Shown one piece after another: positions 33,499 to 53,789 of a stretch of 64,000 bases of DNA. This DNA comes from Rhizobium sp. CCGE531 (GTDB lineage Bacteria > Pseudomonadota > Alphaproteobacteria > Rhizobiales > Rhizobiaceae). Position 1 is the first letter of the stretch. Every line of letters starts with the position of its first letter. The notes beneath the pieces were generated by a model. The model made no database searches. It was not told the origin of the DNA and saw nothing but the letters and a program-made list of their open reading frames with translations. The position numbers and the translations under genes are program-made. The stretch is from contig NZ_CP032687.1 of the NCBI RefSeq assembly GCF_003627795.1, forward strand, positions 124,001 to 188,000, read 5' to 3'.

Positions 33499-34545
33499 TC
33501 AGCAGATCCGCGGCAACTGTTCGCCCCATAGCCAATCGACAATGCGACTGCCACCAAACGACGTCGCCATCTGGACGAAGCAATGGTCGTCATCCTCGGC
33601 ATGGCCGATCAATGCGGCCTGCGCACCCAACGGATGCGCGCGCATGACGGCGAGCAGCGCATTCGCAAACTCTGGCGCCACCAATACGACGAGCTTGCCC
33701 TCGTTGGCGACGTTGAGCGGGTCGAGGCCGAGCAATTCGCAGGCCGCGGCTACTTCCGGTTTGATCGGAATGGTCTCCTCGTCGATGCGGAGGCCGACAT
33801 TTGAGGCATTGGCGATTTCGTTGAGTGTCGCCGCAAGTCCACCGCGCGTTGGATCTCGCATCAGCCTGATTGACGATCCGGCGACCTCGACCATTGCCGC
33901 TACTAACCCGTGCAGCGCAGCGCAATCCGATATGATGTCCGTATCGAAATCCAGGTTCTCGCGCTTCGACATCACGGCGACGCCGTGATCGCCTATCGAA
34001 CCAGAGATGATGACCGCATCGCCTGGCCGCGCGGCATCGGAGCGTAGGTCGAGACCGGCTCGAATCATGCCGATGCCGGAGGTGGATATGAACACGCCGT
34101 CGGCTTTGCCGCGCTCAACCACTTTCGTATCGCCAGTGATGATTGGCACACCTGCCGCGCGGGAGGCCGCTCCCATGGCGTCGGCAATTCGATTAAGATC
34201 TGCGAGCGGAAACCCCTCTTCAATAATGAAACCTGCCGAAAGATAGAGCGGGCATGCGCCGGCCATGGCAATGTCGTTAATCGTCCCATGCACCGCAAGC
34301 GAGCCAATATTGCCCCCCGGAAAGAACAGCGGCGAGACAACATAGCTGTCGGTGGTCATCACCATGCGCCCTGCCGGAACCGCAAATGCCGACTGATCGT
34401 TGCCAGCCCGGAGCCAGTCATTGTCGAAGGCCCTGTGGAAAATGCCCTTGACCAACTGGTCCGTGGCGCACCCCCCCGCCCCATGCGAGAGATCGATGCG
34501 TCCGTTCCTGAGGTCGAGCCGCGACCTTTTGGCTTTCGTGGTCAT
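33499..34545 (-). CDS. hypE: Hydrogenase maturation protein HypE
   Basis: HypE dehydrates the carbamoylated C-terminal cysteine to a thiocyanate that provides the CN ligands of the NiFe site. The 348-residue protein shows RIDLSHGAGGCATDQLVKGI, the ATP-binding PurM-like regions and the essential C-terminus PRIC with its terminal Cys intact. The ATG at 34545 overlaps the hypD stop (ATGA). It ends the hyp operon; no hypX follows. Confidence 0.95.
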   Translation of the reverse strand: MTTKAKRSRLDLRNGRIDLSHGAGGCATDQLVKGIFHRAFDNDWLRAGNDQSAFAVPAGRMVMTTDSYVVSPLFFPGGNIGSLAVHGTINDIAMAGACPLYLSAGFIIEEGFPLADLNRIADAMGAASRAAGVPIITGDTKVVERGKADGVFISTSGIGMIRAGLDLRSDAARPGDAVIISGSIGDHGVAVMSKRENLDFDTDIISDCAALHGLVAAMVEVAGSSIRLMRDPTRGGLAATLNEIANASNVGLRIDEETIPIKPEVAAACELLGLDPLNVANEGKLVVLVAPEFANALLAVMRAHPLGAQAALIGHAEDDDHCFVQMATSFGGSRIVDWLWGEQLPRIC

Positions 34546-35699
34546 GCGATCGTCCTGCTGCTTTCGTCCGCCTTTCCCTGCCTGCCGAAACGGCCGTAGA
34601 GCCAATACGCGGCGCAGGCGCCTTCCGACGACACCATGCAGGAACCCATCGGCGAATCGGGCGTGCAAACCTTACCAAACAGCTTACAGTCGGACGGCTT
34701 CTTCACACCGCGCAGGATGGCGCCGCATTCGCAGGCCGGATTGTCTTTTGCCGCCGGCGTCACGACGTCGAAACGTTTCTCGGCATCGTATTTGGCATAT
34801 CCAGGCCTGAGGCCAAGCCCACTTTGGGGAATCGCGCCCAGTCCCCGCCATTCGAAGCTTTCCCGCAATTCGAAGACATTGGCGATCTCGCGCCTCGCCT
34901 TCTCGTTGCCAAGGGTGGTCACGGCTCGGATATACTGGTTCTCGACTTTATGGACGCCCTCATTGACCTGGCGGACGAGCATCAGGATTGAATAGATGAC
35001 ATCGAGCGGCTCGAAGCCTGCCACCACGATCGGCTTGTTATATTCTTCGGCAAGGACTTCAAATGGCTGCGTACCAATGACGGTGCTGACATGTGCAGGG
35101 CCGAGCAATCCGTCGATCTTGATAGTGCCGAGCGTGCGAGCATCGGAGTTTTCAAGGATAGTCTGGATCGCAGCCGGTGTTAGCACGTGGTTTGAGAAGA
35201 TCGAAAAGTTTGCGAGGTCCTTAGCGATCGCGAACCGCAGCGACAGCGCCGTCGGCGGCGTCGTGGTCTCGAAACCGATGGCAAAGAAGACGACTTGCCT
35301 GTTCGGTTCGGCTTCGGAGATGTTTAGCGAATCGAGTGTCGAATAGACCATGCGAATATCGGCGCCGGTCGCCCTGGCCTTGAGCAGACTCGAGCCGTTT
35401 GAGGATGGTACACGCATCAAGTCACCATAGGTGCAAAGTGTGATTTCTGGGCACATGGCAAGCGCGATCGCTGCGTCGATGCGGCCGATCGGCAGCACAC
35501 AGACTGGACATCCCGGTCCATGAATCATCTGCACATTGGACGGCAGCAGGTCTTCAAGGCCATAGCGCGAAATTGCATGGGTATGGCCGCCGCAGAATTC
35601 CATGAAATGATAGCTGCGCGCCGGATCTACCGCCGCTGCGATTTGGCGAGCAATATCTTTGGCGAGCTTGGCATCGCGGTATTCGTCTATATATTTCAC
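34542..35699 (-). CDS. hypD: Hydrogenase maturation protein HypD
   Basis: HypD is the iron-sulfur scaffold on which, with HypC, the Fe(CN)2CO unit is assembled. The 385-residue protein has the motifs FCGGHTHAI, GPGCPVCVLP and GFETTTPP and a cysteine-rich C-terminal 4Fe-4S region (CECGAILRG, CKLFGKVCTP). It is coupled to hypC by a four-base overlap. Intact. Confidence 0.96.
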   Translation of the reverse strand: MKYIDEYRDAKLAKDIARQIAAAVDPARSYHFMEFCGGHTHAISRYGLEDLLPSNVQMIHGPGCPVCVLPIGRIDAAIALAMCPEITLCTYGDLMRVPSSNGSSLLKARATGADIRMVYSTLDSLNISEAEPNRQVVFFAIGFETTTPPTALSLRFAIAKDLANFSIFSNHVLTPAAIQTILENSDARTLGTIKIDGLLGPAHVSTVIGTQPFEVLAEEYNKPIVVAGFEPLDVIYSILMLVRQVNEGVHKVENQYIRAVTTLGNEKARREIANVFELRESFEWRGLGAIPQSGLGLRPGYAKYDAEKRFDVVTPAAKDNPACECGAILRGVKKPSDCKLFGKVCTPDSPMGSCMVSSEGACAAYWLYGRFGRQGKADESSRTIA

Positions 35700-35923
35700 G
35701 CCGGACCTCCCAGGGCAGCTTCGCGGATCAAGGCAAGCGTCCTTTCTGCTTCTTCAGTTTCGATCTTTGCAAGCGCGTAGCCGACGTGGAGGATGAGATA
35801 GTCACCGGGCGTCACATCCTCCACGAGTGCAATCGATATGACCTTTAAGACGCCGTCCAGCGTTACCTTGGCCATATTGTCTGGCAGCAATTCCACCACC
35901 TGGACCGGTAGGGCTAGGCACAT
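35696..35923 (-). CDS. hypC: Hydrogenase maturation chaperone HypC
   Basis: A 75-residue protein with the invariant N-terminus MCLALP, whose Cys2 carries the Fe(CN)2CO unit, and the family core GVLKVISIALVEDVTPGDYL and HVGYAL. It overlaps hypF by ten bases and hypD by four. A second HypC-family protein (HupF) is encoded in the hup part, as usual in rhizobia. Confidence 0.95.
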   Translation of the reverse strand: MCLALPVQVVELLPDNMAKVTLDGVLKVISIALVEDVTPGDYLILHVGYALAKIETEEAERTLALIREAALGGPA

Positions 35924-38187
35924 GTCCGGTGCTCCCAGTTCTGGGCGCAGTCGTGTTTGATGACGTGCCGTGCAAAGGCGGCCTGACCGAGCGCTATACC
36001 CCCGTCATTGGGCGGGATCTGGTGCGGCAGGTAGGGCTCGAGGCCATGGTCGCGCAAGGCGCTGGAAAGACCTTCGGCCAGAATGCGGTTTGTGATGCAG
36101 CCGCCGCCGAGCATGATCGCTCGCGTGCCAGCCTGCGATGCACCAAGGGAAGCCCAATCGGCGAGGCCGCTGATCAGCGTGCCGTGGAATAGGTCTGCGG
36201 CCTTTCGGCGGCCAAGCTGCCGCTCCGCCAGATGGATGATGAGGGGTCGGAAATCAAGCAGGCCATCGGCGAGACTGTAGCCCCCGGCAAGACATTGGGG
36301 ATCATCGACGAGTGCTTCGAGTTCCATTGCTGCCTGCCCCTCGTAGCTCTGGACGAGGCGGACGCCCGCTATCGCAGCCACTGCATCGAATAGCCGCCCC
36401 AAGCTGGACGTATCGGCTGATTGCAAGCCGCGGGAAAACATCGCATCAAGTTGCGCGACACCAGGATGTCCGGGCCAAAGCGTGGCCGCAAGGTCGCGCC
36501 GGCGGGCGGCCTGAAGAGCGGCAATTCCCATGCGCCAGGGCTCCCGCGCGACCCGGCCGGCGCCTGGCGCCGGCAAGGGCAGAAGCGAAGAGAGCCGTCG
36601 CCAGCGAGGACCGTTGACGACCAGCATTTCGCCTCCCCAACTACTGCCATCGACGCCATAGCCGTGGCCGTCGAGTGCAAGCCCGAGGACCGGCCCGCCG
36701 GCATGATGTTCCGCCGCCACGGCCGCGACATGGGCGAGGTGATGTTGCACCGGCAGAAGCGGCAAATCCAAATGTTCCGCGATCCGCGCTGAACGAAAAT
36801 CCGGATGCAGATCGCAGGCAGCAAATTCGGGCCTGACATCAAGGATAGAGCAGAGATGCTCGAGGGCTTCCCGCTGGAATCTGATCGCTTTGACATTGTC
36901 GAGACCGCCGATGTGCTGCGACAGGAACGCTTCCCGGCCCCGTGTCACGCAGATCGCGTTTTTGAAGTCCGCGCCGGTGGCAATCACGCATGGGCCGTCC
37001 TCGCCAAGATCGACCGGCTCCGGCACAAAACCCCGGGCGCGCCTCAGAAAGCTCGGCGCGCCGTCAATTACCTGCATGACGGAATCGTCAGCGCGAATGG
37101 CAATGTCACGGTCATGTGTGACGATCAGGTCGGCAACCCCGGGAAGCCGATGCATGGCATCGTCATTATCTGATACGAGCGGTTCACCCTCCGGATTGGC
37201 GCTGGTCGCAATCAGAGCGGCGGGAGCGCCGGCCGCTTCTGCTGCAAACGCGGCAAACAACAGGTGGTGCACCGGCGCATGGGCGAGCAGCAGGCCGATC
37301 CGACTGAGGCCGGGAGCGATGAGCTTGGAAAGGTGATCACGCGCCTCGATAAGGACGATCGGGGCGGCGGTCGAGGCGAGCAAATCCTCTTGCGCCCGCG
37401 AGGGCCTGGCAAGTATTCGGGCTGTCTCAATGTCCGGCACCATGATCGCGAACGGCTTCTCGTCGCGCATTTTGCGTCGTCGGAGACGATCAATCGCCGT
37501 ATCATTGCGTGCGTCGCAGAAGAGCTGGAAGCCGCCGACGCCCTTGATCGCAATGATCTGGCCATTCATGAGCCGCGCGGAGACCTCCGCGATAGGATGG
37601 CTAAGCTGTGGGCCGCAAGCCGGGCAGGCGAGGGGCTCACTATGGAACCGCCGGCTTTCGGGGTTGGCATAGTCTGCGCCGCAGGCGCTGCACATCGGGA
37701 ACGCAGCCATCGAGGTCCGGCCGCGATCATAGGGGAGCGCACGGGTGATGGTGAAGCGCGGGCCACAATGAGTGCAGTTGACAAAAGGATAACCGAAAAA
37801 GCGGTTGTCCGGATCATTCAGTTCGTGCCGGCATTCGACGCAGGTGGCAGCGTCGGCGCCAATGCGCGTGGCGCCACGGCCGCCGACGCTTTCGAGGATT
37901 TCGAACGTTTCGTCGCCGGCCGGCTCCAGTTCCAGCTTATCGACGGTATCGACGCGGGCAAGCGGCGGCGCCTCCTTCCAGACGCGTTCCGCAAAGCAGT
38001 CGACAGCGGTGCCCTCGACCTCGATCAGCACGCCGGCGCTGTCGTTGAGCACGAAGCCGGTAAGCTGCATCATTCTCGCAAGCCTATAGACGAACGGCCG
38101 GAATCCCACCCCTTGCACGGCACCGCGCACACGCACTCGCAACCGCCGGACACGATCTTCCGCCATGGATGCCAAGGTGCTCACCAT
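35914..38187 (-). CDS. hypF: Carbamoyltransferase HypF
   Basis: HypF activates carbamoyl phosphate and transfers the carbamoyl group to HypE, the first step to the CN ligands. The 757-residue protein has in order an acylphosphatase domain (GAVQGVGFRPFVYRLA), two zinc fingers (CVECRHEL..CTHCGP and CSACGADY..CPACGP), a YrdC domain (KGVGGFQLFCDARN) and a Kae1-like domain with metal-binding HHLAHVAAV. Full length. Start 38187 lies two bases after the hypB stop; a second ATG 21 bases later is also possible. Confidence 0.95.
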   Translation of the reverse strand: MVSTLASMAEDRVRRLRVRVRGAVQGVGFRPFVYRLARMMQLTGFVLNDSAGVLIEVEGTAVDCFAERVWKEAPPLARVDTVDKLELEPAGDETFEILESVGGRGATRIGADAATCVECRHELNDPDNRFFGYPFVNCTHCGPRFTITRALPYDRGRTSMAAFPMCSACGADYANPESRRFHSEPLACPACGPQLSHPIAEVSARLMNGQIIAIKGVGGFQLFCDARNDTAIDRLRRRKMRDEKPFAIMVPDIETARILARPSRAQEDLLASTAAPIVLIEARDHLSKLIAPGLSRIGLLLAHAPVHHLLFAAFAAEAAGAPAALIATSANPEGEPLVSDNDDAMHRLPGVADLIVTHDRDIAIRADDSVMQVIDGAPSFLRRARGFVPEPVDLGEDGPCVIATGADFKNAICVTRGREAFLSQHIGGLDNVKAIRFQREALEHLCSILDVRPEFAACDLHPDFRSARIAEHLDLPLLPVQHHLAHVAAVAAEHHAGGPVLGLALDGHGYGVDGSSWGGEMLVVNGPRWRRLSSLLPLPAPGAGRVAREPWRMGIAALQAARRRDLAATLWPGHPGVAQLDAMFSRGLQSADTSSLGRLFDAVAAIAGVRLVQSYEGQAAMELEALVDDPQCLAGGYSLADGLLDFRPLIIHLAERQLGRRKAADLFHGTLISGLADWASLGASQAGTRAIMLGGGCITNRILAEGLSSALRDHGLEPYLPHQIPPNDGGIALGQAAFARHVIKHDCAQNWEHRTCA

Positions 38188-38189
38188 CG

Positions 38190-39058
38190 TCAGACTACCT
38201 GCGAAGCTTTCGCGATCCGGGCCGCCTCAGCCTCCAGCCAGAAATAGAACGCTTCCATGCCGTCGCCGCTGCGCGCAGAAACCGTGAGAGTGCGAAGGCG
38301 TGGATTGACGCGCAGCGCATTAGCGATGCAGCGCCCGACATCGAAGTCGAGATGCGGTAGCAGGTCGGACTTGTTGAGAATCATCAGGTCGGCGGCCGCG
38401 AACATGTCGGGATATTTGAGCGGCTTGTCCTCGCCCTCGGTAACCGAAAGCACCACGACCTTATGGGCCTCGCCGAGATCGAAAGCGGAGGGACAGACAA
38501 GATTGCCGACATTTTCGATGAACAAGACTGAACCGGGCTCGGGCGCCAGGTCCTCGACCGCGTGGCCGACCATGTGGGCGTCGAGGTGACAGCCCTTGCC
38601 GGTGTTGATCTGGATTGCGGAAACACCGGTCTTGCGGATGCGTGCGGCATCGTTGGAGGTCTCCTGGTCGCCTTCAATCACGCTGATCGACATTCGGTCC
38701 TTGAGGTCGTGATGGCGCGCACCAGAAAGCTGGTCTTTCCCGACCCGGGGCTTGAAACGAAATTCAGCGCAAAGATGCTGTCACGAACGAACCGAGCCCG
38801 GTTTTCGGCAGCATAGGCATTGTTTTTGGACAGGATGTCCTTTTCGATCTGGACGATGCGCTCCGGGTTCATGCCCGGGACATGCACGCCGGCAATCCGT
38901 TGATGATGTTGGAGCGCACCGTGTTCCGCGTAGTGACGATCATGAGGATGTCCATGATCGTGCAGGTGACCGCGATGATGATCATGGTCGCCTTGCGCGC
39001 CTGTCTTGCTCTTGCCATCTTCCAATGTTGCCATCTCGCAGCCGCATACCGTGCACAT
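38190..39058 (-). pseudogene. hypB: Hydrogenase nickel-insertion GTPase HypB, frameshifted
   Basis: HypB inserts nickel with HypA. The first frame has MCTVCGCEM, a His-rich region ([19 protein letters not shown]) and the P-loop SSPGSGKT, then runs out after LVRAIT; the second frame starts [20 protein letters not shown] and carries [18 protein letters not shown], the ILNKSDLL guanine site and the normal C-terminus. One base is missing near 38709 (ACGACC where ACGGACC is expected). The joined protein would be 289 residues. If real, nickel insertion would depend on another HypB copy or high nickel. Confidence 0.88.
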
Positions 39059-39399
39059 CAGATCACCTCCATGTCCTTGATCCTCAATTCATCGCCCGCC
39101 GTCGCCTGCACCTGATACCGCCCACAATCCGGGCAGGCGCCAAATCGCTCATCGAGGGGCACCGTCTTCCCACAATCGAGGCACCAGCCCTCGCCGGCGA
39201 TGCGGTTGATTTCGAGTGCGGCATGTTCGGCAATCGTCCCACGCCGCACAGCTTCGTAGCAGAACAGGAGCGAATCCGGATTGATATGGCTCAAGACACC
39301 GACATCGAGGCGGATCGATTTGACTGCGCTCGCACCATTTAGCTGCGCCATCTCGCAGACGATGGCGATCACACTCTCCATCAACGACATTTCATGCAT
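39058..39399 (-). CDS. hypA: Hydrogenase nickel metallochaperone HypA
   Basis: A 113-residue protein beginning MHEMSLMES, with the nickel-binding His2, and holding the zinc site CLDCG..CPDCG near residues 73-95. It partners HypB. ATG 39399 overlaps hupK by eight bases, and its stop overlaps the hypB start by one (TGATG). An FNR-type box lies within its coding sequence. Confidence 0.95.
39281..39294. promoter_or_regulatory. Candidate FnrN/FixK box (anaerobox) inside hypA
   Basis: TTGATATGGCTCAA matches TTGAT-N4-ATCAA with one mismatch (C for A). It lies about 220 bases ahead of hypB. In Rhizobium leguminosarum the hypBFCDE operon has an FNR-type promoter within hypA, so position as well as sequence fits. 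Confidence 0.6.
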
Positions 39400-40501
39400 G
39401 CGCGGCATCGCGAACGTTAAGCTTGAACTCGACGCAGGGATCGAACAGAGCCGCGAGGCGATAAACTGACCGGGCTGCTGATTCATGAGCACCGATCCGC
39501 GATGACAGTAGGGTTTTGACAAATGGACCGGCCGGATGAAAATTCCATTCGGTCGGGGCCAGTATCCGGTAGGCGCAAAGTTTCCCGTTCGCGTCGATCT
39601 CGGCCTGATGATAAAGTCTGCCACGCCCACATTCCACCACGCCAAAGCCGCCGTCGCCGGGCACCGAACCACCGGCCATCAGTTCGGAAGGATCATTCTG
39701 GCCCTTGGCAAGATGCGCGAGTTGCTTCAAGCAAAGGCCAACGTCGCCTATGCGTGCCATGAAGCGTTGCCTAAGGTGCGGATCGTCTGGCCTGCTGGTG
39801 TCGCAATGCCGGGCATAAGCACCGGTTTCGACGACCCGACCGGCAAGATGCGGCAAGGCGCAGTAGTGCGCATCTTTGCAAAGATGGGCAATAACTTCGG
39901 CATCATCGGCGGCACTCAGCGGATCAGGGCGCCGGCCTGAAAAAGTTCGGTCGTCCTTGATATCTCGAAAAATCGCCGCGCAAGCCGTGCCATCCGGCGA
40001 CAATCCGTCGTCTTTCGAGATGCCGAGCCCCTCTGCTGCATCGGCAAGCCGCCGCGCGTTGGCAGCCAGGGCACTATGGTTCACTTTTTTCTCTCGCGAT
40101 TGGCCGATGATTGCCTGCGACGCGGCCAGGGCGCCGCGCAGATATTGGCCCGCGTCAGCCACCAGACGTAACGATATTGATGAGGGCCAGTGCAAAATCA
40201 GCGCCCTCAAAGTTTCGAATATCCGTTCGGCAAGCAATCCGGCCACCGCCGCGAGCTGCTCCTCGATGGGCATCGGTAGGCCGGCTGCATTCAGGATGGC
40301 AAGGCGCGCCGCCACCGATTGCGAATAGCCACAGAGCGAAAAAACCCATCCGACAAGCATGGGCGCCTCTTCCGGTCGATGGCCAATGAACATGCGTGCC
40401 AATTCTTGCGGGCGGTTGACCCTCACGTCCACGAAACAGGCAAGCGCTTGCGACACCGTCACATCGATCCGGATCGAGCCGGCGCTAAGGAGATAGGTCA
40501 T
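39392..40501 (-). CDS. hupK: Hydrogenase accessory protein HupK
   Basis: A 369-residue protein related to the hydrogenase large subunit but lacking its nickel cysteine pairs; the end [16 protein letters not shown] echoes the DPCxxC region of HupL. HupK is thought to act as a scaffold during assembly under oxygen. The start overlaps the hupI/J remnant stop (ATGA), and the stop overlaps hypA. Confidence 0.88.
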   Translation of the reverse strand: MTYLLSAGSIRIDVTVSQALACFVDVRVNRPQELARMFIGHRPEEAPMLVGWVFSLCGYSQSVAARLAILNAAGLPMPIEEQLAAVAGLLAERIFETLRALILHWPSSISLRLVADAGQYLRGALAASQAIIGQSREKKVNHSALAANARRLADAAEGLGISKDDGLSPDGTACAAIFRDIKDDRTFSGRRPDPLSAADDAEVIAHLCKDAHYCALPHLAGRVVETGAYARHCDTSRPDDPHLRQRFMARIGDVGLCLKQLAHLAKGQNDPSELMAGGSVPGDGGFGVVECGRGRLYHQAEIDANGKLCAYRILAPTEWNFHPAGPFVKTLLSSRIGAHESAARSVYRLAALFDPCVEFKLNVRDAAHA

Positions 40502-40932
40502 GCAACAAGCTCCCGAAGCGCTCGGAAAACCCTCCAACGCAGATCACGGCGCATGGGGCTGGCGGTTGGATGGGATGGCGGCGCGAGCGCAACGATGTTG
40601 AAAAATGCGCGCATCGCCTTCAACACCGTCCCCATCGTTTCAAACTCAAAGGCCATGAAAAACAGCAAGCAGGAATCAAAACCGCCAGTCGTCTCGGATT
40701 TTTGCCGGCGATGAATTCGATCACGCCTGCCCGCACATTCCGAGTCGTGCCTACAGCAGCCAAAATCATGAACCGTGGCGTCGCGACGATGCGGTCGTTC
40801 GCCCGCCGAATGCCAGCAAGCTCGTTTCCGAAGCGCCTTTCGCGGGCGCATAGACGTCCAGCATGTGCCGCCTTTCACCCTATCCTTATCCGAAACGGTC
40901 ACATGCGTGACGAGATTCTCGAAGCTGATCAT
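40498..40932 (-). pseudogene. Fused remnant of hupI (rubredoxin) and hupJ
   Basis: The 144-codon frame begins MISFENLVTHVTVSDKDRV, like the start of HupI rubredoxins, at the position hupI should occupy (four-base overlap with hupH). The rubredoxin C-x-x-C pairs are absent. The end, FEFETMGTVLKAMRAFFNIV with PPSHPTASPMRRDLRW, resembles the C-terminus of HupJ/HoxT proteins. The middle of both proteins is missing or scrambled. An internal deletion therefore joined the 5' end of hupI to the 3' end of hupJ. Confidence 0.65.
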
Positions 40933-41675
40933 TTGAAATAAGCCTCCTCGACATCACGCAGGCGCGCGGCGGAGTCGCGGAAATCCTCTTCAGTCGCGAG
41001 GGCGAGGGATGGGATGTCGACGATTTGCAGCATGTCGAGGACGATCTCATCCATGTTGTCGTAAAACTGTACGGACCAAACGTTTCGGGCCCCTGCTGCC
41101 GTCACGCGACAGGTGCGGTAGCCGCGTGATGTCAGTTGTACGGGACCGGCTCCGAGCGTGACCTGCAGGAAATTCACATCCTCGATGCTCATCGGAAACA
41201 ACGACAAAATGATAGCGTGCGCAGGATCGCCATCCCGGTACTGGACAATGCGGTCACCGATCTCGGTCAGCACCGGCATGACGTTCATAGCGCCAGGCGG
41301 CGCAGGTCCATGTGAGACCAAGGCCGGCAGCGCCGTGCAGGCCCTCCGCACCGTCATAGGAATCGGGCCGACCTCGATATATTCCGCAATGAGGTCGCCG
41401 GCGGGGTCGGTAAAGCGCATATGCCAGACGCCGGCCATAACCGCTTCCTTGAACTGCGCCAGGACCCCGGAGGGCAGCGCCGCTACCCCGCAAACCTCGC
41501 CCTTGCCGAGCGTCTGCGTGACCAATTTCTTGTCATCGTCGTCGAATTCGAAAATGTCGAATAGCTGCCCCGGCTGGCCGGCTTTTTGCACCGCAAGCGT
41601 TGCAGCAATGTCGGATATGAGCATTGCGGCTCGGCAGCTTCGGCCGTTTAGGGAGCCAACTGGGTAGGCTGGCAT
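40929..41675 (-). CDS. hupH: Hydrogenase accessory protein HupH (HoxQ)
   Basis: A 248-residue soluble protein of the HupH/HyaF family with two similar halves (AVLP-like PALVSHGPAPPGAMNVMPVL; PMSIEDVNFLQVTLGAGPVQ, YRTCRVTAAGARNVWSVQFY). It is needed for small-subunit maturation in rhizobia. ATG 41675 with GGAG is preferred over an upstream in-frame TTG. Intact. Confidence 0.9.
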   Translation of the reverse strand: MPAYPVGSLNGRSCRAAMLISDIAATLAVQKAGQPGQLFDIFEFDDDDKKLVTQTLGKGEVCGVAALPSGVLAQFKEAVMAGVWHMRFTDPAGDLIAEYIEVGPIPMTVRRACTALPALVSHGPAPPGAMNVMPVLTEIGDRIVQYRDGDPAHAIILSLFPMSIEDVNFLQVTLGAGPVQLTSRGYRTCRVTAAGARNVWSVQFYDNMDEIVLDMLQIVDIPSLALATEEDFRDSAARLRDVEEAYFK

Positions 41676-41950
41676 TGTCTGCTCCAAATCAGCGTGTAAT
41701 TCATTCTCGCACTTGGGATCTGCAAGCGGCGTACCAGTTGCTGAGAAAGATGGGTCGTATTGATCTGAAGGAAAATTCCGGTCGCGGTCTTATGCGGATG
41801 CGCACACGCGGCCCCGATGCTGAGGCAGCGCGTTACGCTTCGCAATATTCAGCAATCCGCCCGCAGCCAGCAGGATCGATCTCGTCCGTCTCCGGCTGCC
41901 CTTGGACAGTCCACATGAACATGTGGCCGACAAGGAAGAGGAGATTGCGT
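41676..41950. other. Gap where hupG would be expected
   Basis: Between hupF and hupH rhizobial clusters normally carry hupG. I find no HupG-like sequence in any frame of these 275 bases, only short shadows, so the gene appears deleted. Confidence 0.55.
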
Positions 41951-42265
41951 TCAGTTGAGAAATACGAACTGCCAGTTTTCCCGCAAATGCAACGGTAATT
42001 CCGGCTCGCGGGAGATAAGATCGGCAAATAGCGTTTCGAATGACCGTCCTTCGACCGCTTCAGCAAGACCGGCCAACGCATCGTCGATCTTGTGTGCTTC
42101 GTCGGCATCGAGCACCCGGATCGCAGATCCTAGATGAGTAAGAACGTACGTCCCAACCGGTTGCGGGCCGACCAGCACCATCGAAATCGCAAAAACCGAT
42201 CCGTGGCGCTCGCACTCCGCTGTAAATTCGCCACCAGTCACCTGCATCGGAATTCCTATGCACAC
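41951..42265 (-). CDS. hupF: HypC-family hydrogenase chaperone HupF
   Basis: A 104-residue protein starting with GTG: (M)CIGIPMQV, the HypC-family N-terminus with Cys2. GAGGGG lies upstream. The core GTYVLTHLGSAIRVLDADEA matches HupF, which stabilises the large subunit at high oxygen. A longer open frame upstream has no supporting ribosome site. Confidence 0.88.
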   Translation of the reverse strand: MCIGIPMQVTGGEFTAECERHGSVFAISMVLVGPQPVGTYVLTHLGSAIRVLDADEAHKIDDALAGLAEAVEGRSFETLFADLISREPELPLHLRENWQFVFLN

Positions 42266-42406: not shown

Positions 42407-42988
42407 TCAATTCGCCCGGTCCGCTCGCCGCTCGTAATGTGCAAAATCGATGTCGTTGGCGAGGAGAGCGGGCGCGGCGGTGCGGCGCGAACTGATGGCG
42501 ACGCCCCATCGCTCCAGGATGCCGGCGGCTACCATTACGGCGGCCGGGATTACGGATTTGACGGGCTCAGTCACCGGTCCGCCCCAGCTATCGAGGTCCA
42601 CCGGTTGGCAGCCGATCAGTGCGAGTCTTGCGGGATAGCGATCGAGAAGGTCGGCAGCGCTCAGAACTTCCTGGAAGCCTGTCTGGTGCAGGCTCATCTT
42701 TTTGGCGCCGGTGAATTTCGGCACGTCGTCATTCTCGACGATCTTCAGCGTGCCGGGCGCGAGACCGAAGTCGACCGCGTCGAATACAATCAGATGATCG
42801 GCTTCGGTGACATATTGCACGAGATAAAGGCCCTGGGTGCCGCCGTCGAGCACGGTGACGTTGGTCGGCACCGCATAGGCCTGGTGGAAGGCTTCGACAG
42901 CGCGGACGCCAAAACCCTCGTCCGCCCAGAGAATATTGCCAATGCCGAGCACCAAAACGTTCGGTTTGCGAGAGTTCGCTTCGTCCAT
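42407..42988 (-). CDS. hupD: Hydrogenase maturation endopeptidase HupD
   Basis: HupD removes the C-terminal peptide of HupL after nickel insertion. The 193-residue protein has GIGNILWADEGFGVRAVEAF with the nickel-sensing Glu, VFDAVDFGLAPG with the Asp, and SLHQTGFQEVL with the His. It starts one base after the hupC stop. The 141 bases to hupF lack hupE, which normally sits here. Confidence 0.93.
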   Translation of the reverse strand: MDEANSRKPNVLVLGIGNILWADEGFGVRAVEAFHQAYAVPTNVTVLDGGTQGLYLVQYVTEADHLIVFDAVDFGLAPGTLKIVENDDVPKFTGAKKMSLHQTGFQEVLSAADLLDRYPARLALIGCQPVDLDSWGGPVTEPVKSVIPAAVMVAAGILERWGVAISSRRTAAPALLANDIDFAHYERRADRAN

Positions 42989-42989
42989 C

Positions 42990-43703
42990 CTAGTCCTCGT
43001 TGTGCTTGGACAGCCGCTCGCCCGAAATCATCGACGAAACGATGCTCTGGCGGCTGACGATGTCCTCGCGTACCGCGATATAGATATGGATCATCACGAA
43101 GATCAGGATCACCCACATTCCCAGATGATGAAGGGTATGAACGGACTGGCTGTTCGGCCAGATGAAGAATACCCGACCAAACAGCCTGTATGCCCAGCTG
43201 TCGTGGCCGACGCTTTCGCCATAGAGCGCAAATCCGGTGATCACCATGAATGTCAGCGGCAGCGTGAACGTCACGAACATGACGAATTGCGACAGCGGAT
43301 TGTGGCCAGCATATTTCAACGCGCGTCCAGTAAGGAATGTGTAAACGCGCACCTCGTGCAGCCATTCGCTCCAGAACCGTCCGCTCCAGAAGGGAACGTA
43401 GAAGATTTGGCGTGCATGCACGTTGCCGACGAAGACCCAGTAGATTCTGAGGATCAGGGCCACGGCCAGGATCTGCCCGGCGGCGAAATGGACAAAACGG
43501 ATATAGCCCATCAGGAAATTGGCGCTCGCCTCGCCGGGTGCCGCCGCCAATGGGCTGCCGATGAAATAACCCGTCAGCGCCAGCGCCAGGATGGAGAAAG
43601 CGTTTATCCAGTGCCAGAGGCGAACGGGCGCCTCGTAGGCATACACGTTTTCGCGCTCGCTGGCGCGTTCGTCATCGGCGTTTGAGATAGCAGAGATGCT
43701 CAT
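42990..43703 (-). CDS. hupC: Hydrogenase cytochrome b subunit HupC
   Basis: A 237-residue b-type cytochrome with four membrane segments that anchors HupSL and passes electrons from hydrogen to the quinone pool. VRLWHWINAFSILALALTGY carries the first haem-ligand His; later segments add HFAAGQILAVALI and HTLHHLGMWVILIFVMIHIY. ATG 43703 has GAGGAGG upstream, eleven bases after the hupL stop. Confidence 0.94.
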   Translation of the reverse strand: MSISAISNADDERASERENVYAYEAPVRLWHWINAFSILALALTGYFIGSPLAAAPGEASANFLMGYIRFVHFAAGQILAVALILRIYWVFVGNVHARQIFYVPFWSGRFWSEWLHEVRVYTFLTGRALKYAGHNPLSQFVMFVTFTLPLTFMVITGFALYGESVGHDSWAYRLFGRVFFIWPNSQSVHTLHHLGMWVILIFVMIHIYIAVREDIVSRQSIVSSMISGERLSKHNED

Positions 43704-43714: not shown

Positions 43715-45505
43715 TCATCTGACTTGGACCTTGGCCATTTCCTGTCCGTCCGGGCTCATGATATGGGTGGAGCATGCAAGGCACGGATCGAAGGAATGGA
43801 GGGTTCGGAGGATTTCGAGCGGCTGCGACGGATCCGACATAGGCGTGTCAATCAGTGAGGCCTCGAACGCGCCGATATTGCCGTGCGGATCGCGCGGACT
43901 GCCGTTCCAGGTGGTCGGCACCACACATTGATAATTGTCGATCTTGCCCCCCTTGATCTTGATCCAGTGTGCGAGGGCGCCGCGCGGGGCCTCGGTGAAG
44001 CCGACGCCCTTGACCTCGCAAGGCCAAGTCTCCGGCTTCCATTTGTCGATGAAGGCGGTGGCGCTGTCGCCGGCCTTGATATTGGCGACCAGCTTGTTGT
44101 GGAAATAGCGCATCTGCCGGCCTGCCCAGACGGATTCGAGCGCGCGAGCGGCGGTACGCCCTAGTGTCGAAAATAACGCCGCGGTCGGCAGGCCGAGGTC
44201 CTTCAGGACCTTGTCGACGGGATCCTTGAATTCTGCCTTGCCCTGGGCGTAGCCCAAGACCCAACGGGAAAGCGGGCCGACTTCCATGGCGTGGCCGCGC
44301 CAGCGCGGCGCCTTGATCCAAGAATATTTTCCGCCTTCGTCCAGCTCTTGAATGTTGGTCTTGGTGCCCTTGGCATTCGGCCCAAGCTCGTAATGCGGCA
44401 CGGTGACACCGTCCCAGGGATGCAAGCCCTTGGCCTCGTCCGGATATTCGTACCAGGAGTGACTGACGAATTCCTGGATCTGCTCTGGATCGGAATGGTC
44501 GACTGGCAGGACTTCGTTGAAATTGCCATTAATGATCGCACCGCGCGGAAGCTTCAGGCTCGCCTCCGTGTAGTCATTTGCGTGTTCCGGCACGTCGCCA
44601 TAGGCAAGCACGTTCTTGCCCGACAACCCGCCGCCGAACAGCCAATCCTTGTAGAAGGAACCGATCGCCATGATGTCCGGTAGGTATACCTTCTCGTTGA
44701 ACTCGATCAGCTGGTCGATCACCGACGAAATTTGGTTTAACCGTTCCATTGTAATCGCGCCGACGGCTCCCGTGCCGTCGAGGTTGATCGGACAGGGCAC
44801 TCCGCCGACCAGCCAATTCGGATGCGGATTTTTCCCGCCGAAGATCGTGTGGATCTTGACGATCTCCCTCTGGAAATCGAGGGCTTCGAGATAGTGTGCT
44901 ACGGCCATCAGGTTCGCTTCAGGCGGCAGCTTATAGGATAGATTGCCCCAGTAGCCGTTCTTGAATGGACCAAGCTGGCCGGATTGGACGAACTTTCTCA
45001 GCCGTGTCTGGATGTCTTTGAAGTAGCCCGGCGAAGACAATGGCCAATCGGACACCGATTGGGCAAGCGCCGAGGTGGCCTTCACATCGGCCGTGAGGGC
45101 AGATATGACATCCACCCAGTCGAGCGCATGCAGGTGATAGAAATGCACGACGTGGTCATGAACCTGCAATGCCAGCTGCATGAGATTGCGGATCGAATTG
45201 GCGTTTTCCGGAATGGTTATGCCGAGCGCATTTTCAACCGCCCGCACCGATGTGAGCGCATGGGTTCCGGTGCAGACGCCGCAGATCCGTTCCGTGAAAG
45301 CCCAGGCATCGCGTGGATCGCGATTTTTGAGGATGACTTCAATGCCTCGCCACATTGTGCCGGTGGAAACGGCATTGCGGATGATATTGTCCTCGTCGAC
45401 ATTGACCTCGACCCGCATGTGGCCTTCGATGCGGGTTACAGGATCGACCACAAGACGCTTGCCGGAATTGTCGAGCGTGAAGCCATCTGGCGTTTGGATG
45501 GTCAT
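43715..45505 (-). CDS. hupL: Uptake hydrogenase large subunit HupL
   Basis: The catalytic subunit, 596 residues, usual length. The N-terminal nickel motif is [16 protein letters not shown] (RxCGxC) and the C-terminal one DPCLACSTH, followed by a 15-residue tail that HupD removes. Both cysteine pairs are intact. It starts with an ATGA overlap with hupS. Confidence 0.97.
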
Positions 45506-46614
45506 CGTGATCTTTCCTGTCCATTGCCGTTTTTAGGACCGGTTTTCCCGCGCTTGGCGGTGACCTGCTTGACGGCGCTGATTGCAGCATGGGCAGCAAT
45601 CGCCCCACCGACAACACCAGCTGCGGTCATGCCCACCTGGTCTGCAGTGGCTTCCACGCCGAATGGGCTGACCTCGGTCAGTCGGGAGTAAAAGCTTCCT
45701 GCGTCCCAGAAATTTTGTTCCGAGCAGCCGATGCAGCCATGACCCGACTGGATCGGGAAAGAGACGCCGCCATTCCAGCGAACGGTCGAGCAGGCGTTAT
45801 AGGTGGTCGGGCCTTTGCAGCCCATCTTGTAGAGGCAGTAGCCCTTGCGCGCGCCTTCGTCGTCCCACTCCTCGACGAACTGGCCGGCGTCGAAATGAGC
45901 GCGCCGATAGCACTTGTCGTGGATGCGCTGCGAATAAAACATCTTAGGCCGACCCTGATGATCGAGTTCGGGGAGCTTGCCGAACGTGGTGATGAAGGTG
46001 ACGACGCCGGTCATCACCTCTGCGATCGGCGGACAGCCAGGCACTTTGATGATCGGCTTGTCGCGGATCACTTTGTCGATCGGCGTCGCCTCGGTGGGGT
46101 TGGGCGTTGCGGCCTGAACGCAGCCCGAAGAGGCACAGGTTCCCCAGGCGATGACAGCCAGGGCGCCTTCGGCCATCCATTTGAGTTTCTCGACGAAGGG
46201 TCGCCCGCCATCGATGCAGAACATCCCGCCTTCGTTGAGCGGCGGATTGCCTTCGACGGCAAGAATGTACTTGCCCTTGTGCTTCTCCTTGGTCTCTTTG
46301 AGGATCGCCTCGGCCTGGTAGCCGGCCGCCGCCATGATTGTATCGTCGTAATCGAGTGAAATCATCGACAGGACTACATCCTTGGCCAGCGGATAGGCGG
46401 AGCGGATGAAGCTTTCCGAGCAGCAGGTGCATTCGAGCCCATGCATCCAGATCACCGGCACACGCTCTTTGGTTTCAAGTGCCTCGGCCATCGCTGCGGC
46501 CGTATCGGAGCCAAGGCCGAGGCAGGCCGCCGTGAGGCTGCAGAACTTCATGAAACTGCGCCGGGTTATGCCCTGGCGACGGATAACATCGTAAAACGTT
46601 TCGGTCGCGGCCAT
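45502..46614 (-). CDS. hupS: Uptake hydrogenase small subunit HupS
   Basis: A 370-residue iron-sulfur subunit. The Tat signal [19 protein letters not shown] directs export of the folded HupSL pair. The cluster ligands begin [10 protein letters not shown] and continue with [29 protein letters not shown] and [15 protein letters not shown] 46614 follows GGAGGAG; a longer frame starting at 46635 is not supported. Only 94 bases separate it from the flavin monooxygenase gene, and they contain no sigma-54 element, so read-through from upstream is likely. Confidence 0.96.
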
Positions 46615-46708
46615 CCTGCTCCTCCACCTTCCCACCCCTGAGGCCTTTTTATTCAGTGAGCGATTTTAATCCTCGATCTCAACTCGACCCCTGAGTGGCG
46701 ACCGCTTT

Positions 46709-48652
46709 TCAAACCGCTTCAGCCGAGGCCTTTGACTGGTAGCCGACGTTCCCCATGATGTGGTAGTCACTGAGGTCTGCCTCCTTCGTTAGGTTCCAAT
46801 AGTCGATAAGGCGCCAAGGGCTGTTTGTTACGATTCGCCCCCGGGCGTTGCGGAAATAGGTGGACATGCCGGGATGGCTCCAGATCATCTTCTGGTGCAT
46901 TTCCTGGATCGTCCGGTTGTAGTGTTGATAAACGTCTTGCCGGCATTCCACCTCGGATAACTTCTTTTCTCCCATCTGGCGCAGAACGCTCAGCACGTAG
47001 TCCAGCTGGCTTTCGATCGTGAAGATGAAGTTCCCGCGATGACCGAGGGCTGTATTGGGGCCGTAGAGCATGAAGAAGTTCGGGAAACCCGGCATGACGC
47101 TACCAAGATACGCCTGACAGTCGTCATCGTCCCAAGCCTCACGTACTGTCACGCCATCGCGTCCGAATATCTGAACTGGAAGCAAGAAGCGTGTGATATC
47201 GTAGCCCGAGGCGACGATGAGAACATCTGCCTCATGGCTGTCGCCATTTATCGCTCGGATCGACTTGCCTTCGACCTGTGCAGCAGCGCTGTCCACCAGA
47301 CTGACCTGCGGCTTCAGAAGGGTTCTGTACCAGCCATTGTCCAGGAGCATTCGCTTGCCGAACGGCGGGTAGGGGGGAATGACCTTCGCCAGTAGCTCGG
47401 GCCGCCCGGCGAGCTGTTCTTCGATATATCGTGTACACGTCTCGCGGTGGCCGTCGTTCAGCGCATTCACAGAGCGATCGGGATGCGGCCATGCCGGATC
47501 CTTCTGCAGGGATTCGTGCACTTGAGTATCAAAAATCCAACTCAGCCGGAGCCTATAAAGCCATTCGTAATGTGGTACCGCGCGGAGCAAGAACTGCATC
47601 GACTCGGGAACCGACATAAGAAATTTTGGAAAGGGTGCCGCCCATTGGCGCGATCGTTGGAAGATTGTCAGGGCGCTCACCCGATCGGCGATGGCCGGGA
47701 CAATCTGCATTGCCGATGCTCCGTTTCCGATCACAGCCACGCGTTTGCCGTCGAGCGTAACCCCGGGATCCCAATTGGAGGTGTGCACCAACGGTCCGTC
47801 GAAGTCACGCAGCCCGGGAATGTTTGGCCATTTTGGCGTGGTAAATCCGCCCACGGCTGAAATGACCACATTGGTTACAAGGGTTTCTTCCCGCCCGTCT
47901 GGCAAGCGCAATCGAGAATGCCAAGTCCGGCTTTCCTCATCATAACGAGAAAACAGGCATTCCGTGCCGTAGCGGATTGAGCTTTCAATACCGAAGTCGC
48001 AGGCGACCCGGTTGAGATATTCATCAATTTCCTGCTGCAACGGGAAGAACTTACTCCAGTCGCCGCTGGCAAACGTGAAGGAGTATAGATGTCCGGGCGT
48101 GTCGACCCCGCAGCCAGGATAGCGATGTGAATGCCAGACCCCGCCTGTGCGGTCCTGCTTTTCAATCTGGATGTAAGAAACGCCCAGTTGTCGCAGCCGA
48201 ACTGCGGCCGCGATGCCGGACATGCCGGCTCCGATGACAAGTATGCGGAAGTTGTCCGGCAAACACACCGGATCAGGAACCGCGCCTGAATACCTCCGCA
48301 GCTTGTGGATCATCATGTCAGCATATTCCGGCGGAATAGGCTCAGCTTCTGACATGGAGAGCATGCGGATCAATTCTTCTGCCGATAAGTCTGCCCTTGC
48401 GATGGGAACGCCTTGGCGCCAAGCCATGATGGCGCTCAGTGCTGCATCGCGAATCTCCGCCTGCAATTCGATTGCCAGACCACCGGAGTCGTTGTCGTCC
48501 CAGCCGCTCTTGGCAGGAATAAACCGCGGACCTAGCCAATATTCTCGTCCTGTGAACTGATAAAGCAGGAGCAACAAGGTTGGGATATTGGCCGAAGGGA
48601 GTGCTTCGGCGATACGCTGACGAAACTGGTCGATGTCTTCAAAGTGAGCCAT
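46709..48652 (-). CDS. Flavin monooxygenase, Baeyer-Villiger type (HAPMO-like)
   Basis: A 647-residue FAD/NADPH monooxygenase with the long N-terminal extension of 4-hydroxyacetophenone-monooxygenase-like enzymes. GAGMSGIAAAVRLRQLGVSY is the FAD Rossmann motif, FDGPLVHTSNWDP is the Baeyer-Villiger fingerprint (FxGxxxHxxxW), and VAVIGNGASAMQIVPAI is the NADPH motif. A perfect sigma-54 promoter with a NifA site lies about 440 bases upstream, so the gene is probably expressed during nitrogen fixation, and hup may be co-transcribed. Ketone or sulfide oxidation is expected; the substrate is unknown. Confidence 0.9.
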   Translation of the reverse strand: MAHFEDIDQFRQRIAEALPSANIPTLLLLLYQFTGREYWLGPRFIPAKSGWDDNDSGGLAIELQAEIRDAALSAIMAWRQGVPIARADLSAEELIRMLSMSEAEPIPPEYADMMIHKLRRYSGAVPDPVCLPDNFRILVIGAGMSGIAAAVRLRQLGVSYIQIEKQDRTGGVWHSHRYPGCGVDTPGHLYSFTFASGDWSKFFPLQQEIDEYLNRVACDFGIESSIRYGTECLFSRYDEESRTWHSRLRLPDGREETLVTNVVISAVGGFTTPKWPNIPGLRDFDGPLVHTSNWDPGVTLDGKRVAVIGNGASAMQIVPAIADRVSALTIFQRSRQWAAPFPKFLMSVPESMQFLLRAVPHYEWLYRLRLSWIFDTQVHESLQKDPAWPHPDRSVNALNDGHRETCTRYIEEQLAGRPELLAKVIPPYPPFGKRMLLDNGWYRTLLKPQVSLVDSAAAQVEGKSIRAINGDSHEADVLIVASGYDITRFLLPVQIFGRDGVTVREAWDDDDCQAYLGSVMPGFPNFFMLYGPNTALGHRGNFIFTIESQLDYVLSVLRQMGEKKLSEVECRQDVYQHYNRTIQEMHQKMIWSHPGMSTYFRNARGRIVTNSPWRLIDYWNLTKEADLSDYHIMGNVGYQSKASAEAV

Positions 48653-49099
48653 GGATTAGGTTCCTGCGGTTGAAGGATCTGGACCAATCGTCCAAGGCCT
48701 CGCGCCTGGATGCGATTGCTGTCCAAGTTCGAGGGTTCCACGACGGGCGTTTGGGGAGATTCTGCAGCAATTCGGCAAATATCAATTCAAAACGCGCCGG
48801 ACCGGTCGGCATTGATCGCCGCGAACAAAAAGCCGCCTATTGAGGCGCCGTCAGATTAGAGGTTATGACGACGATGAGGGTTTGCTCGTGCGTTCGTCGC
48901 GACCACCCAGGTACAACCTGATGCGTCTGCGTGGCCACCGTTCGATATTCCTCGGCGAACATGGCCTGTTCCTTCTTCGGGATCTGGAGCCTTCTGCTCT
49001 CGGATGACCGGGCATAGGTCCCGGCAGATAATTTGGCGCTAACATTTCGACATCTCCATGCGGTACCGTCGGACCGTGACGCGTCTGCAAATGCTTCGC
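48653..49099. other. Long leader upstream of the flavin monooxygenase gene
   Basis: This is transcribed sequence if the 49100 promoter is used. It holds a 41-codon frame, minus strand 48837-48962 (MFAEEYRTVATQTHQVVPGW), preceded by AAGGAA; I cannot decide whether it is translated. A weak stem (CGCCTCAATAGGCG) followed by CTTTTT in the minus orientation lies at about 48825-48850 and could attenuate transcription. Confidence 0.35.
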
Positions 49100-49115
49100 A
49101 GCAATATGCGTGCCA
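49100..49115 (-). promoter_or_regulatory. Sigma-54 (-24/-12) promoter
   Basis: On the minus strand TGGCACGCATATTGCT is a perfect match to TGGCACG-N4-TTGCW. Transcription would start near 49088 and run toward the flavin monooxygenase and hup genes. A NifA-type site lies about 70 bases upstream. Confidence 0.85.
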
Positions 49116-49449
49116 AAGGAAAAAATGTTTTCTTGTTCAACATAATCGATCAAACCGCCCGGCGTTGCATATCGATCGATTGTCGCATATCGGACAAGGC
49201 CAAGTGATCTTGACCCGTTAACCGCCTGACGAGCGCGAGGGACTGCTGCCGACCTCCTCGCCGGGACATCGAGTTCGGGGCCGAGCGTCTCGGCCGCGAA
49301 TGTTGCCCAATCCGTTATGCCCGATATTCCCTCGCGCTTTGGCCGAAAGGGCACGACAAATCGTTGCCAGACATGGGTGGAATGGCTGGTTATTGCCAAT
49401 AGCATGCGAAGGATTGGCTCTTCGCCGGCAGCGGCGGCAGGACTTGTTC
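49116..49449. other. Intergenic region with a NifA site
   Basis: Apart from the NifA site this region holds only overlapping frames without ribosome sites. One 180-codon minus-strand frame (48863-49405) spans the promoter itself and is not supported as a gene. Confidence 0.4.
49181..49196. promoter_or_regulatory. NifA upstream activator site
   Basis: TGTCGCATATCGGACA fits TGT-N10-ACA and is nearly palindromic. It lies roughly 100 bases ahead of the expected start from the 49100 promoter, the normal geometry for NifA. Confidence 0.82.
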
Positions 49450-50559
49450 TTAGGTCGCCTTTTCCAGCACGTGAATGTCTGAGCCGGCGGCATCTGAAAG
49501 CACATCAACCGACACAAGCCCTGCCAGGTTCGCGCATTCTCTGAAAAACTCTTCCGAAAAAGAAAATGAGTTCTTCAAATGCAGCCGATCACCATTTTTA
49601 AGTTCGATGCTTTTTCCTTTGAGTCGAAACGACAAATTTCTATTCACCGTCGCGGTGTGGATCACCTGCATGAAGCTGTCATCACCTCTTATATCCGCCT
49701 CATACTCAAACACTCCTGGATCAAAGTTATCGTCGACGGGTAATTCTGCCTTCATTCGATAAAATACGTTTAGCTGAAATTCTGGATGCGCTTCGTAGTA
49801 GGCTTTTGCGACATTCCACCTCAGATCCGAGCCTATTGAGATCGCAAGCCAGCACTTCTCAGCGCTGTTCGATATCCTCCTCAACGCCTGGACAACCGCC
49901 GCAACCGGAGGAGCCTCACTTATGGAAGCGGCAAGATTCCCAAAAGTCCGCCCGAACATGACGACCAATGCCGTTTCCTCATCGGAAAAAAAGCGCCGCC
50001 CGGAAAAAATGTCATCTCGTATGAACTCGATCTTCAGGTCGAACGATGGTGGCGATCGCTCTATATCCGAGAGGAACTCGTTCGAGCGATCAACCAGTAC
50101 GCAACGTGAGGTTTTTCCGCGCAACTCCGTTGCAAGGGGAAGGGTCTTCTGCTGAAATGCTCGCACTGTTCCGGGGCCAAAGTCGAGAATTGACACCCCT
50201 TTTTGAGATCGCTTGCCCTGAGGCCATCGGACATACTCTTTTACTCTCTGCTGAAGGTCTCGTGCCAACTTGATCTCGGCGTCGACCATATTGGTTGTCC
50301 CGGTATCCAACGCATTGTTCATCCTCTGGGTTTCAGCCCTTGCCCACAACAGCGAGCCGCTCATCGAATTGCCGTCCCGATCACATCCAGTGTGGTGAGC
50401 GTATTGTTCTGGACCTAAGTCTGGCGCATATTTTTGTTGAAACAGCTTCAAACTCGTTTCAAGAAAGCTCACAATTGCTCTCCTCTGTGGGTGGCGATGG
50501 ATTGGCGACAGGCGAAACTTTTGCGCAAAAAATTCTTTTGCCCGTCGCATTGAGCGCAC
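49450..50559 (-). CDS. EgtD-like (histidine-specific type) SAM methyltransferase
   Basis: A 369-residue protein with a SAM-dependent methyltransferase core: VSILDFGPGTVRAFQQKTLP is motif I, CVLVDRSNEFL motif II, and ALVVMFGRTFGNLAASISEA matches the FPGSTIGN-like block of EgtD/Methyltransf_33 proteins, which N-methylate histidine or related amines. The last third (ADIRGDDSFMQVIHTATVNR, SFSEEFFRECANLAGL) also follows that family. The exact start is uncertain among several in-frame codons. A sigma-54 promoter and NifA site lie just upstream. The substrate is unknown. Confidence 0.7.
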   Translation of the reverse strand: MRSMRRAKEFFAQKFRLSPIHRHPQRRAIVSFLETSLKLFQQKYAPDLGPEQYAHHTGCDRDGNSMSGSLLWARAETQRMNNALDTGTTNMVDAEIKLARDLQQRVKEYVRWPQGKRSQKGVSILDFGPGTVRAFQQKTLPLATELRGKTSRCVLVDRSNEFLSDIERSPPSFDLKIEFIRDDIFSGRRFFSDEETALVVMFGRTFGNLAASISEAPPVAAVVQALRRISNSAEKCWLAISIGSDLRWNVAKAYYEAHPEFQLNVFYRMKAELPVDDNFDPGVFEYEADIRGDDSFMQVIHTATVNRNLSFRLKGKSIELKNGDRLHLKNSFSFSEEFFRECANLAGLVSVDVLSDAAGSDIHVLEKAT

Positions 50560-50676
50560 GGATCGTGGCGGCGGCTTTCTGTGCCATACGTATGGCGGTG
50601 TCTTTGCAGCTACCCACCTTTTTGTGTGGGGCCGACTGTCGGATTTTCCTCCTCCAGCAAGTCGGCGGCGGTTCAG

Positions 50677-50692
50677 GCATTATTCAGGCCAA
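50677..50692 (-). promoter_or_regulatory. Sigma-54 promoter for the methyltransferase gene
   Basis: On the minus strand TTGGCCTGAATAATGC has the invariant GG and GC separated by ten bases. It lies about 120 bases before the methyltransferase start, with a NifA site 60-75 bases upstream. Confidence 0.7.
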
Positions 50693-50753
50693 GGCAGAAC
50701 ATCGTTTTAAAACAATGAAGTGCTACTCATGCGCCTTTGACCGTGTCCGGCAT

Positions 50754-50769
50754 TGTCGGAAGCGCGACA
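50754..50769. promoter_or_regulatory. NifA upstream activator site
   Basis: TGTCGGAAGCGCGACA fits TGT-N10-ACA with symmetric TGTCG..CGACA arms. It is placed to act on the methyltransferase promoter (minus) and might also serve the P450 side. Confidence 0.75.
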
Positions 50770-50845
50770 CCGTAATGTCGCGTGTTTGCTCGTCGACCTC
50801 TACGCCAAGTTGCTTGCGCGAGCGCGATCGCGTTTCACCGGTTTT

Positions 50846-50861
50846 TGTTAGCTCCTCGACA
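50846..50861. promoter_or_regulatory. NifA upstream activator site
   Basis: TGTTAGCTCCTCGACA fits TGT-N10-ACA. It lies about 80 bases ahead of the sigma-54-like element facing the P450 gene. Confidence 0.65.
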
Positions 50862-50937
50862 CAAGCTTTTTCAGCTTGCTCGGGATCAAATAGCCGAAGA
50901 GCAACGGGAAGATCGCTTTTCGGCCGACCAAAGGGAA

Positions 50938-50954
50938 CTGGCATGAATTTTGAA
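50938..50954 (+). promoter_or_regulatory. Sigma-54-like element ahead of the P450 gene
   Basis: CTGGCATGAATTTTGAA matches the -24 half (CTGGCA-G) and TTG of the -12 half, but the usually invariant GC at -12 is GA. Activity is therefore less certain than for the other two promoters. Confidence 0.5.
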
Positions 50955-52405: not shown

Positions 52406-52439
52406 CTCGAGCGCCGCTATGCAGCTTCGGAGGTGCGGC

Positions 52440-53700: not shown

Positions 53701-53789
53701 GTAAGCGCCGTCTCCGCCCCATTGAATTGGCTATATTTTGAGGCTTGCCGGGTGTGCGAGAAGGTTTCCAGGACTATCTGGAGATTTGC

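Follow-up and report, generated by a model that had tools for sequence, protein, structure and literature searches.

The hydrogenase genes (hup) of Rhizobium sp. CCGE531 stand directly behind a flavin monooxygenase gene that is preceded by an exact NifA/sigma-54 promoter, and the short gap before hupS holds no such element. Whose promoter is this, and what drives hup? The question was raised by a sequence-only reading of a 64,000-nucleotide stretch (contig NZ_CP032687.1, positions 124,001 to 188,000; here, the window), which proposed that the hup promoter might have been displaced upstream of an unrelated oxidase, placing both under nitrogen-fixation control. The tested 7 kb of the locus (45400-52400) are 100% identical to pRtrCIAT899b, the symbiotic plasmid of Rhizobium tropici CIAT 899 (NC_020061.1). 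Read along the minus strand, an EgtD-like methyltransferase gene is followed by the promoter, the monooxygenase, hupSLCDF, a reduced hupHJK block, and hypABFCDE. The explanation favored overall, with a probability of about 0.7, is that the promoter is the ancestral one of the Baeyer-Villiger-type monooxygenase (BVMO), that the hup promoter P1 was deleted, and that hup would now be reached by NifA-driven read-through.

The promoter at 49100, TGGCACGCATATTGCT, is the sole exact match to TGGCACGNNNNTTGCW within the window, and an upstream activator sequence (UAS; TGTCGCATATCGGACA) lies 66-81 bases upstream of it, within the ~60-150 bp expected for such an element; both elements are where the sequence-only reading had placed them. 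By sequence, the site has the marks of a NifA/RpoN promoter, with a -24 GG and -12 GC in consensus flanks, a UAS, and conservation in orthologous loci. Motif enrichment was considered as proof of the promoter and rejected, because the window counts of both motifs equal chance: 13 sites with up to two mismatches were observed versus 12.8 expected, and 7 UAS versus 7.05. Among 200 first-order Markov sequences of 64 kb, six exact sites arose, none of them with a UAS upstream. The 7.14 Mb genome contains six exact sites, two on this plasmid, and 82 matches with at most one mismatch, versus 49 for a reversed control pattern. The strong evidence for the promoter is, in this analysis, the pairing of site and UAS together with cross-genus conservation; dependence on NifA and RpoN is predicted. 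No Rfam match to the leader RNA was found at gathering threshold (46000-54000).

The gene behind the promoter had been read as a Baeyer-Villiger-type flavin monooxygenase, and on sequence comparison this label holds. Type I enzymes carry the fingerprint FxGxxxHxxxW[PD]; FDGPLVHTSNWD fits it, the pattern is present in all four aligned sequences, and the best solved relatives include cyclohexanone and phenylacetone monooxygenases (E ~1e-56).

Monooxygenase loci were collected from plasmid records and from one scan of 84,980 species (one genome per species), which returned 16 loci and detects only relatives with two short peptide patterns. A -24/-12 site with at most one mismatch lies within 900 bp of the monooxygenase start in 26/28 loci and in all four of a further set (two exact), giving 30/32 with the window included; these loci are not all independent, as L009-L012 carry a monooxygenase identical to that of the window and several Sinorhizobium/Ensifer loci are near-copies. 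The site is absent in L006 and L021 (Rhizobium sp. CC1099, whose monooxygenase is annotated as two pieces, and the distant isolate R129_N). hup stands directly behind the monooxygenase in 13 of the 32. Neither hupS nor hupL is present in the 2.1-5 kb examined downstream of the other 19, some of which have a broken or cut monooxygenase (L006, L007, L023, L024, L048), and the gene that follows varies (transposase, efflux pump, or regulator). The promoter is found at 17 of these 19 hup-less loci (13/15 in the first set, 4/4 in the second; several near-identical). In the alignment, promoter and UAS form conserved islands across Rhizobium, Sinorhizobium/Ensifer, Mesorhizobium, and Microvirga, with the first T of the UAS replaced by another base in several loci. 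Because it stands before monooxygenases that lack hup, the promoter at 49100 is, on this comparison, the monooxygenase's own, ancestral element.

Some variation around these loci is recorded separately. Four hup-less loci (L003 at 6950, L018, L020, and L022) have a second sigma-54-like site ~74-76 bp before the monooxygenase. The EgtD-like methyltransferase gene of R. gallicum and of R. etli Mim1 carries a sigma-54-like site (L003 9206, one mismatch; L004 8623, two) and a UAS of its own. In two Ensifer strains, a broken hupS remnant lies upstream of the EgtD-like gene (L018 1488-2511, L022 1488-2510).

Passages of PMC3534401 describe P1 as the NifA-dependent promoter that serves hupSL of R. 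leguminosarum UPM791 in nodules, in agreement with the sequence-only reading, which had credited hupS of that species with a NifA promoter of its own. Among 20 hupS starts examined, nine are preceded by a P1-like site between -73 and -90, with 2-3 mismatches to consensus; these include UPM791 (TGGTCCGCTTCTTGCA, at -84) and one broken hupS (L022); L018 and L036 had no matched hupS start and were set aside from the 20, L036 having the site in the gap alignment. R. calliandrae and R. jaguaris share the monooxygenase-hup order of the window, with gaps of 474 and 499 bp and a P1 site at -77. The R. mayense gap is also 499 bp, and the -24 GG of its P1 reads GA. No P1-like site is present in any of the ten tropici-clade loci (CIAT 899, representing the window, R. 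leucaenae, two R. lusitanum, R. freirei, CCGE532, CB3060, NXC24, CB3171, and CB3090), in which the gap is 91-95 bp; the 94 bp of the window (46615-46708) contain no GG-N10-GC at up to three mismatches, as had been claimed. The short gap aligns with the long version at both ends, first at the monooxygenase end and then at the hupS leader just downstream of P1, followed by ribosome site and start codon. By this alignment, a deletion of ~380-410 bp took P1 and left the hupS leader and start in place. A literature search, with the original papers on P1 and hup diversity outside its reach, found no report of a P1 deletion or of a monooxygenase-hup transcript.

Maximum-likelihood trees with midpoint root were calculated for the monooxygenase (22 rows) and for hupSL (16 rows). 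In both, a branch with 100/100 support separates the six distinct deletion loci from the rest, with the three long-gap loci as their sister group, so the trees fit a single origin of the deletion. Selection after this event was assessed by Nei-Gojobori omega between deletion-clade strains (15 pairs of six loci, with bootstrap bounds for five chosen pairs). Mean omega over the 15 pairs is 0.13 for hupS, 0.085 for hupL, 0.14 for hupD, and 0.13 for the monooxygenase; the five pairs give 0.09-0.18, 0.06-0.10, and 0.10-0.19 for hupS, hupL, and hupD, with bootstrap upper bounds of <=0.38 (<=0.41 with the monooxygenase included). No frameshift or internal stop was found in hupS, hupL, hupC, or hupD at any of the six loci. 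Indel gaps number 0-3 per pair over ~4.2 kb of hupSLCD versus 4-11 over ~0.78 kb of non-coding leader (13 versus 84 in total, ~35 times rarer per kb; 10 non-independent pairs of five of the six loci, CCGE532 left out), and 0-7 per pair in the hupJ region (~0.4-0.5 kb). By these measures, hupS, hupL, and hupD are under strong purifying selection after the loss of P1. That the core structural genes were kept suggests that they were probably expressed after this loss.

The nearest good promoter match upstream of hupS on this strand is the site at 49100. Between 46615 and 48120, no minus-strand GG-N10-GC sigma-54 (<=3 mismatches), sigma-70-like, or FNR-type site was found; no FNR-type box with at most one mismatch lies near hupS, and the 94 bp gap contains no terminator-like site (intergenic RNA structure, z -0.14). 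According to passages of PMC3534401, one upstream promoter substituted for P1 is enough to drive the entire R. leguminosarum cluster, which is counted as support. As far as the sequence can tell, one NifA promoter probably serves both BVMO and hup. The common nitrogen-fixation control first proposed is retained to this extent, as a probable shared promoter, and the part that made this promoter hup's own is abandoned.

Several observations weigh against read-through from an ancestral monooxygenase promoter. CCGE532, a member of the deletion clade, has lost ~80 bp including the UAS before its monooxygenase (L025 9728-9740; net 96 bp over a wider stretch) and keeps the -24/-12 site. CB3060 shifts its place within the clade between the BVMO and hupSL trees, which implies some recombination between the genes. 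The monooxygenase gene itself contains weak sigma-54-like matches on the minus strand, at 47181 (two mismatches, no -24 GG), 48121 (three), and 48462 (two), and minus-strand terminator-like stem-loops, not above chance, occur in the same gene (47536-47550) and twice in the leader. Omega is looser for hupC (mean 0.41; 0.29-0.57 in the five pairs, with an interval including 1 in two of them), hupF (0.31), and the hupH and hupK frames (0.25 and 0.33). Finally, passages of PMC3557214 report that the CIAT 899 hup cluster is inactive, the strain Hup-minus, and its accessory set truncated, and passages of PMC4125696 repeat the inactivity; a Hup-minus CIAT 899 with a truncated accessory set suggests that selection may have relaxed recently in this strain. 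Hydrogenase expression in some R. tropici strains is also stated in the PMC3557214 passages, which cite a 1994 paper whose title assigns Hup-positive bean rhizobia to R. tropici.

The rival that best survives these points is that hup is a promoterless, silent relic, the monooxygenase transcript stopping before hupS or giving no useful hydrogenase. Gene loss in CIAT 899 (hupE, hupG, and hupI not found), large gaps in the hupJ region in most pairs, and the looser evolution of hupC, hupF, hupH, and hupK agree with such a relic, which we nevertheless regard as unlikely, given omega values of 0.06-0.19 for hupS, hupL, and hupD between strains already carrying the deletion, the unbroken hupS, hupL, hupC, and hupD frames, and the rarity of indels in hupSLCD relative to the leader. 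Considerably less probable is a new promoter of another type for hupSL, located within the monooxygenase gene or in the 94 bp before hupS; it would explain selection on hup without read-through, the consensus scans are limited, and weak sigma-54-like matches do occur in the monooxygenase gene, but none of the three types of site sought was found on the minus strand over 46615-48120. That an oxidase insertion displaced the hup promoter itself would suit the NifA/RpoN kind of both promoters and the lack of an own site at hupS, but is rejected as very improbable, as the same promoter precedes BVMOs without hup and P1 is a different element, distinct in sequence and position in the sister clade, where it occupies the 474-499 bp gap behind the monooxygenase; the mechanism first proposed is, on the locus comparison, inverted, the hup promoter having been deleted, not displaced.

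In the favored account of promoter ancestry, P1 deletion, and read-through, the hup cluster with its own P1 would have been placed behind the monooxygenase before the R. tropici and R. calliandrae/jaguaris lineages parted. One deletion of ~380-410 bp on the tropici side would then have taken out P1, leaving 91-95 bp, with the hupS leader, between the monooxygenase and hupS. Read-through from the monooxygenase promoter, activated by NifA, would transcribe hupSLCD in bacteroids, with hydrogenase function predicted to persist. For the accessory genes, the P3-like site and the FNR-type box within hypA may remain in use.

The P3-like site aligns with one in the hupF-hupG interval of R. leguminosarum UPM791, which we take to be the NifA promoter P3 of the literature; no UAS was found for it. 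The FNR-type box is in keeping with the FnrN-type promoter that serves hypBFCDEX (cited in passages of PMC3534401). The complete hup/hyp set (hupSLCDEFGHIJK and hypABFCDE) is not present: hupE was not found between hupD and hupF, nor hupG and hupI at this locus, hupH is without ~45 N-terminal residues, and hupJ is a remnant. Hydrogenase is described, again in passages of PMC3534401, as less dependent on HupGHIJ at nodule oxygen levels.

Table. Features of the monooxygenase-hydrogenase locus, in window coordinates
Feature	Position	Strand	Basis
NifA UAS, TGT-N10-ACA, TGTCGCATATCGGACA	49181..49196	-	motif scan; aligned in most orthologous loci
Sigma-54 -24/-12 promoter of monooxygenase, TGGCACGCATATTGCT, exact consensus	49100..49115	-	motif scan; orthologue conservation
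Untranslated leader, presumed transcription start to monooxygenase	48653..49090	-	inferred from promoter geometry
Type I Baeyer-Villiger-like flavin monooxygenase, 647 amino acids	46709..48652	-	sequence; purifying selection
Shortened intergenic stretch, 94 bp; hupS leader retained, P1 and ~380-410 bp gone	46615..46708	-	locus comparison
hupS, hydrogenase small subunit, intact, start at 46614	45502..46614	-	annotation, comparison, selection
hupL, hydrogenase large subunit, intact	43715..45505	-	annotation, comparison, selection
hupC (42990-43703) and hupD (42407-42988)	42407..43703	-	annotation, comparison, selection
hupF	41951..42265	-	annotation, comparison
P3-like sigma-54 site, TGGTACGCCGCTTGCA	41721..41736	-	aligned site, 0-2 mismatches, 9/9 loci
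Reduced accessory block: shortened hupH, hupJ remnant, hupK	39395..41642	-	comparison
hypABFCDE	33499..39399	-	annotation, comparison
FNR-type box within hypA, TTGATATGGCTCAA, one mismatch	39281-39294		motif scan

Other NifA-type sites lie nearby. A second probable NifA promoter precedes a porin gene, with a UAS at 52765-52780 and CGGCATGCATATTGCT (two mismatches) at 52842 (+). In the stretch 50754-52690, two UAS (50754, 50846) and a nifH-like site at 50939, TGGCATGAATTTTGAA, accompany genes for a cytochrome P450 and a ferredoxin. Passages of PMC3538637 place an Omp2-type porin gene and a P450-ferredoxin pair of M. loti under NifA control. A full-length porin gene and a facing hemN are separated by ~117-118 bp in CB3060, CB3171, and CB3090. 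In CIAT 899 (53176-63422), the porin frame (230 amino acids) and a hemN-like frame (366) are both shorter, and ~8 kb of DNA that includes recombinase and IS66 genes separates them.

The hup cluster of CIAT 899 has been judged inactive from the Hup-minus phenotype and gene content. With a regulatory event mappable to a tree (P1 loss), a sister clade that bears P1, and selection afterwards, the survival of an operon by read-through from its neighbor becomes testable, as does the reason why some members are Hup-minus. Hydrogen recycling is desired in inoculants for bean, among which CIAT 899 is widely used. It is tempting to see here a natural promoter capture, to which we give somewhat less than an even chance: the hydrogenase of the whole R. 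tropici clade would be the tail of a monooxygenase-hydrogenase transcript, still functional in at least part of the clade and held by selection since the deletion, with R. mayense (broken P1 -24) on the same route independently.

Phenylacetone and cyclohexanone monooxygenases (type I BVMO) share the sequence family and fingerprint of the window monooxygenase, which differs from them in ~120-130 additional N-terminal residues. The S. fredii NGR234 orthologue NGR_RS31640 (presumably y4iD; 78.7% identity) has an exact promoter at -408 and an EgtD-like gene upstream and, unlike the window, no hup within 4 kb downstream; a search of one literature collection for the monooxygenase under the name y4iD found no paper. 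For the NifA-RpoN regulon of M. loti R7A, passages of PMC3538637 describe accessory oxidoreductases and methyltransferases that have a -24/-12 site and whose NifA dependence was demonstrated by lacZ fusions in nodules; in contrast to the window, those passages name no hydrogenase. The monooxygenase of that regulon, msi280, is a candidate orthologue of the window monooxygenase. Whereas hupSL of R. leguminosarum UPM791 has P1, the tropici clade is without it, and its nearest good NifA promoter lies ~2.5 kb upstream and is that of another gene.
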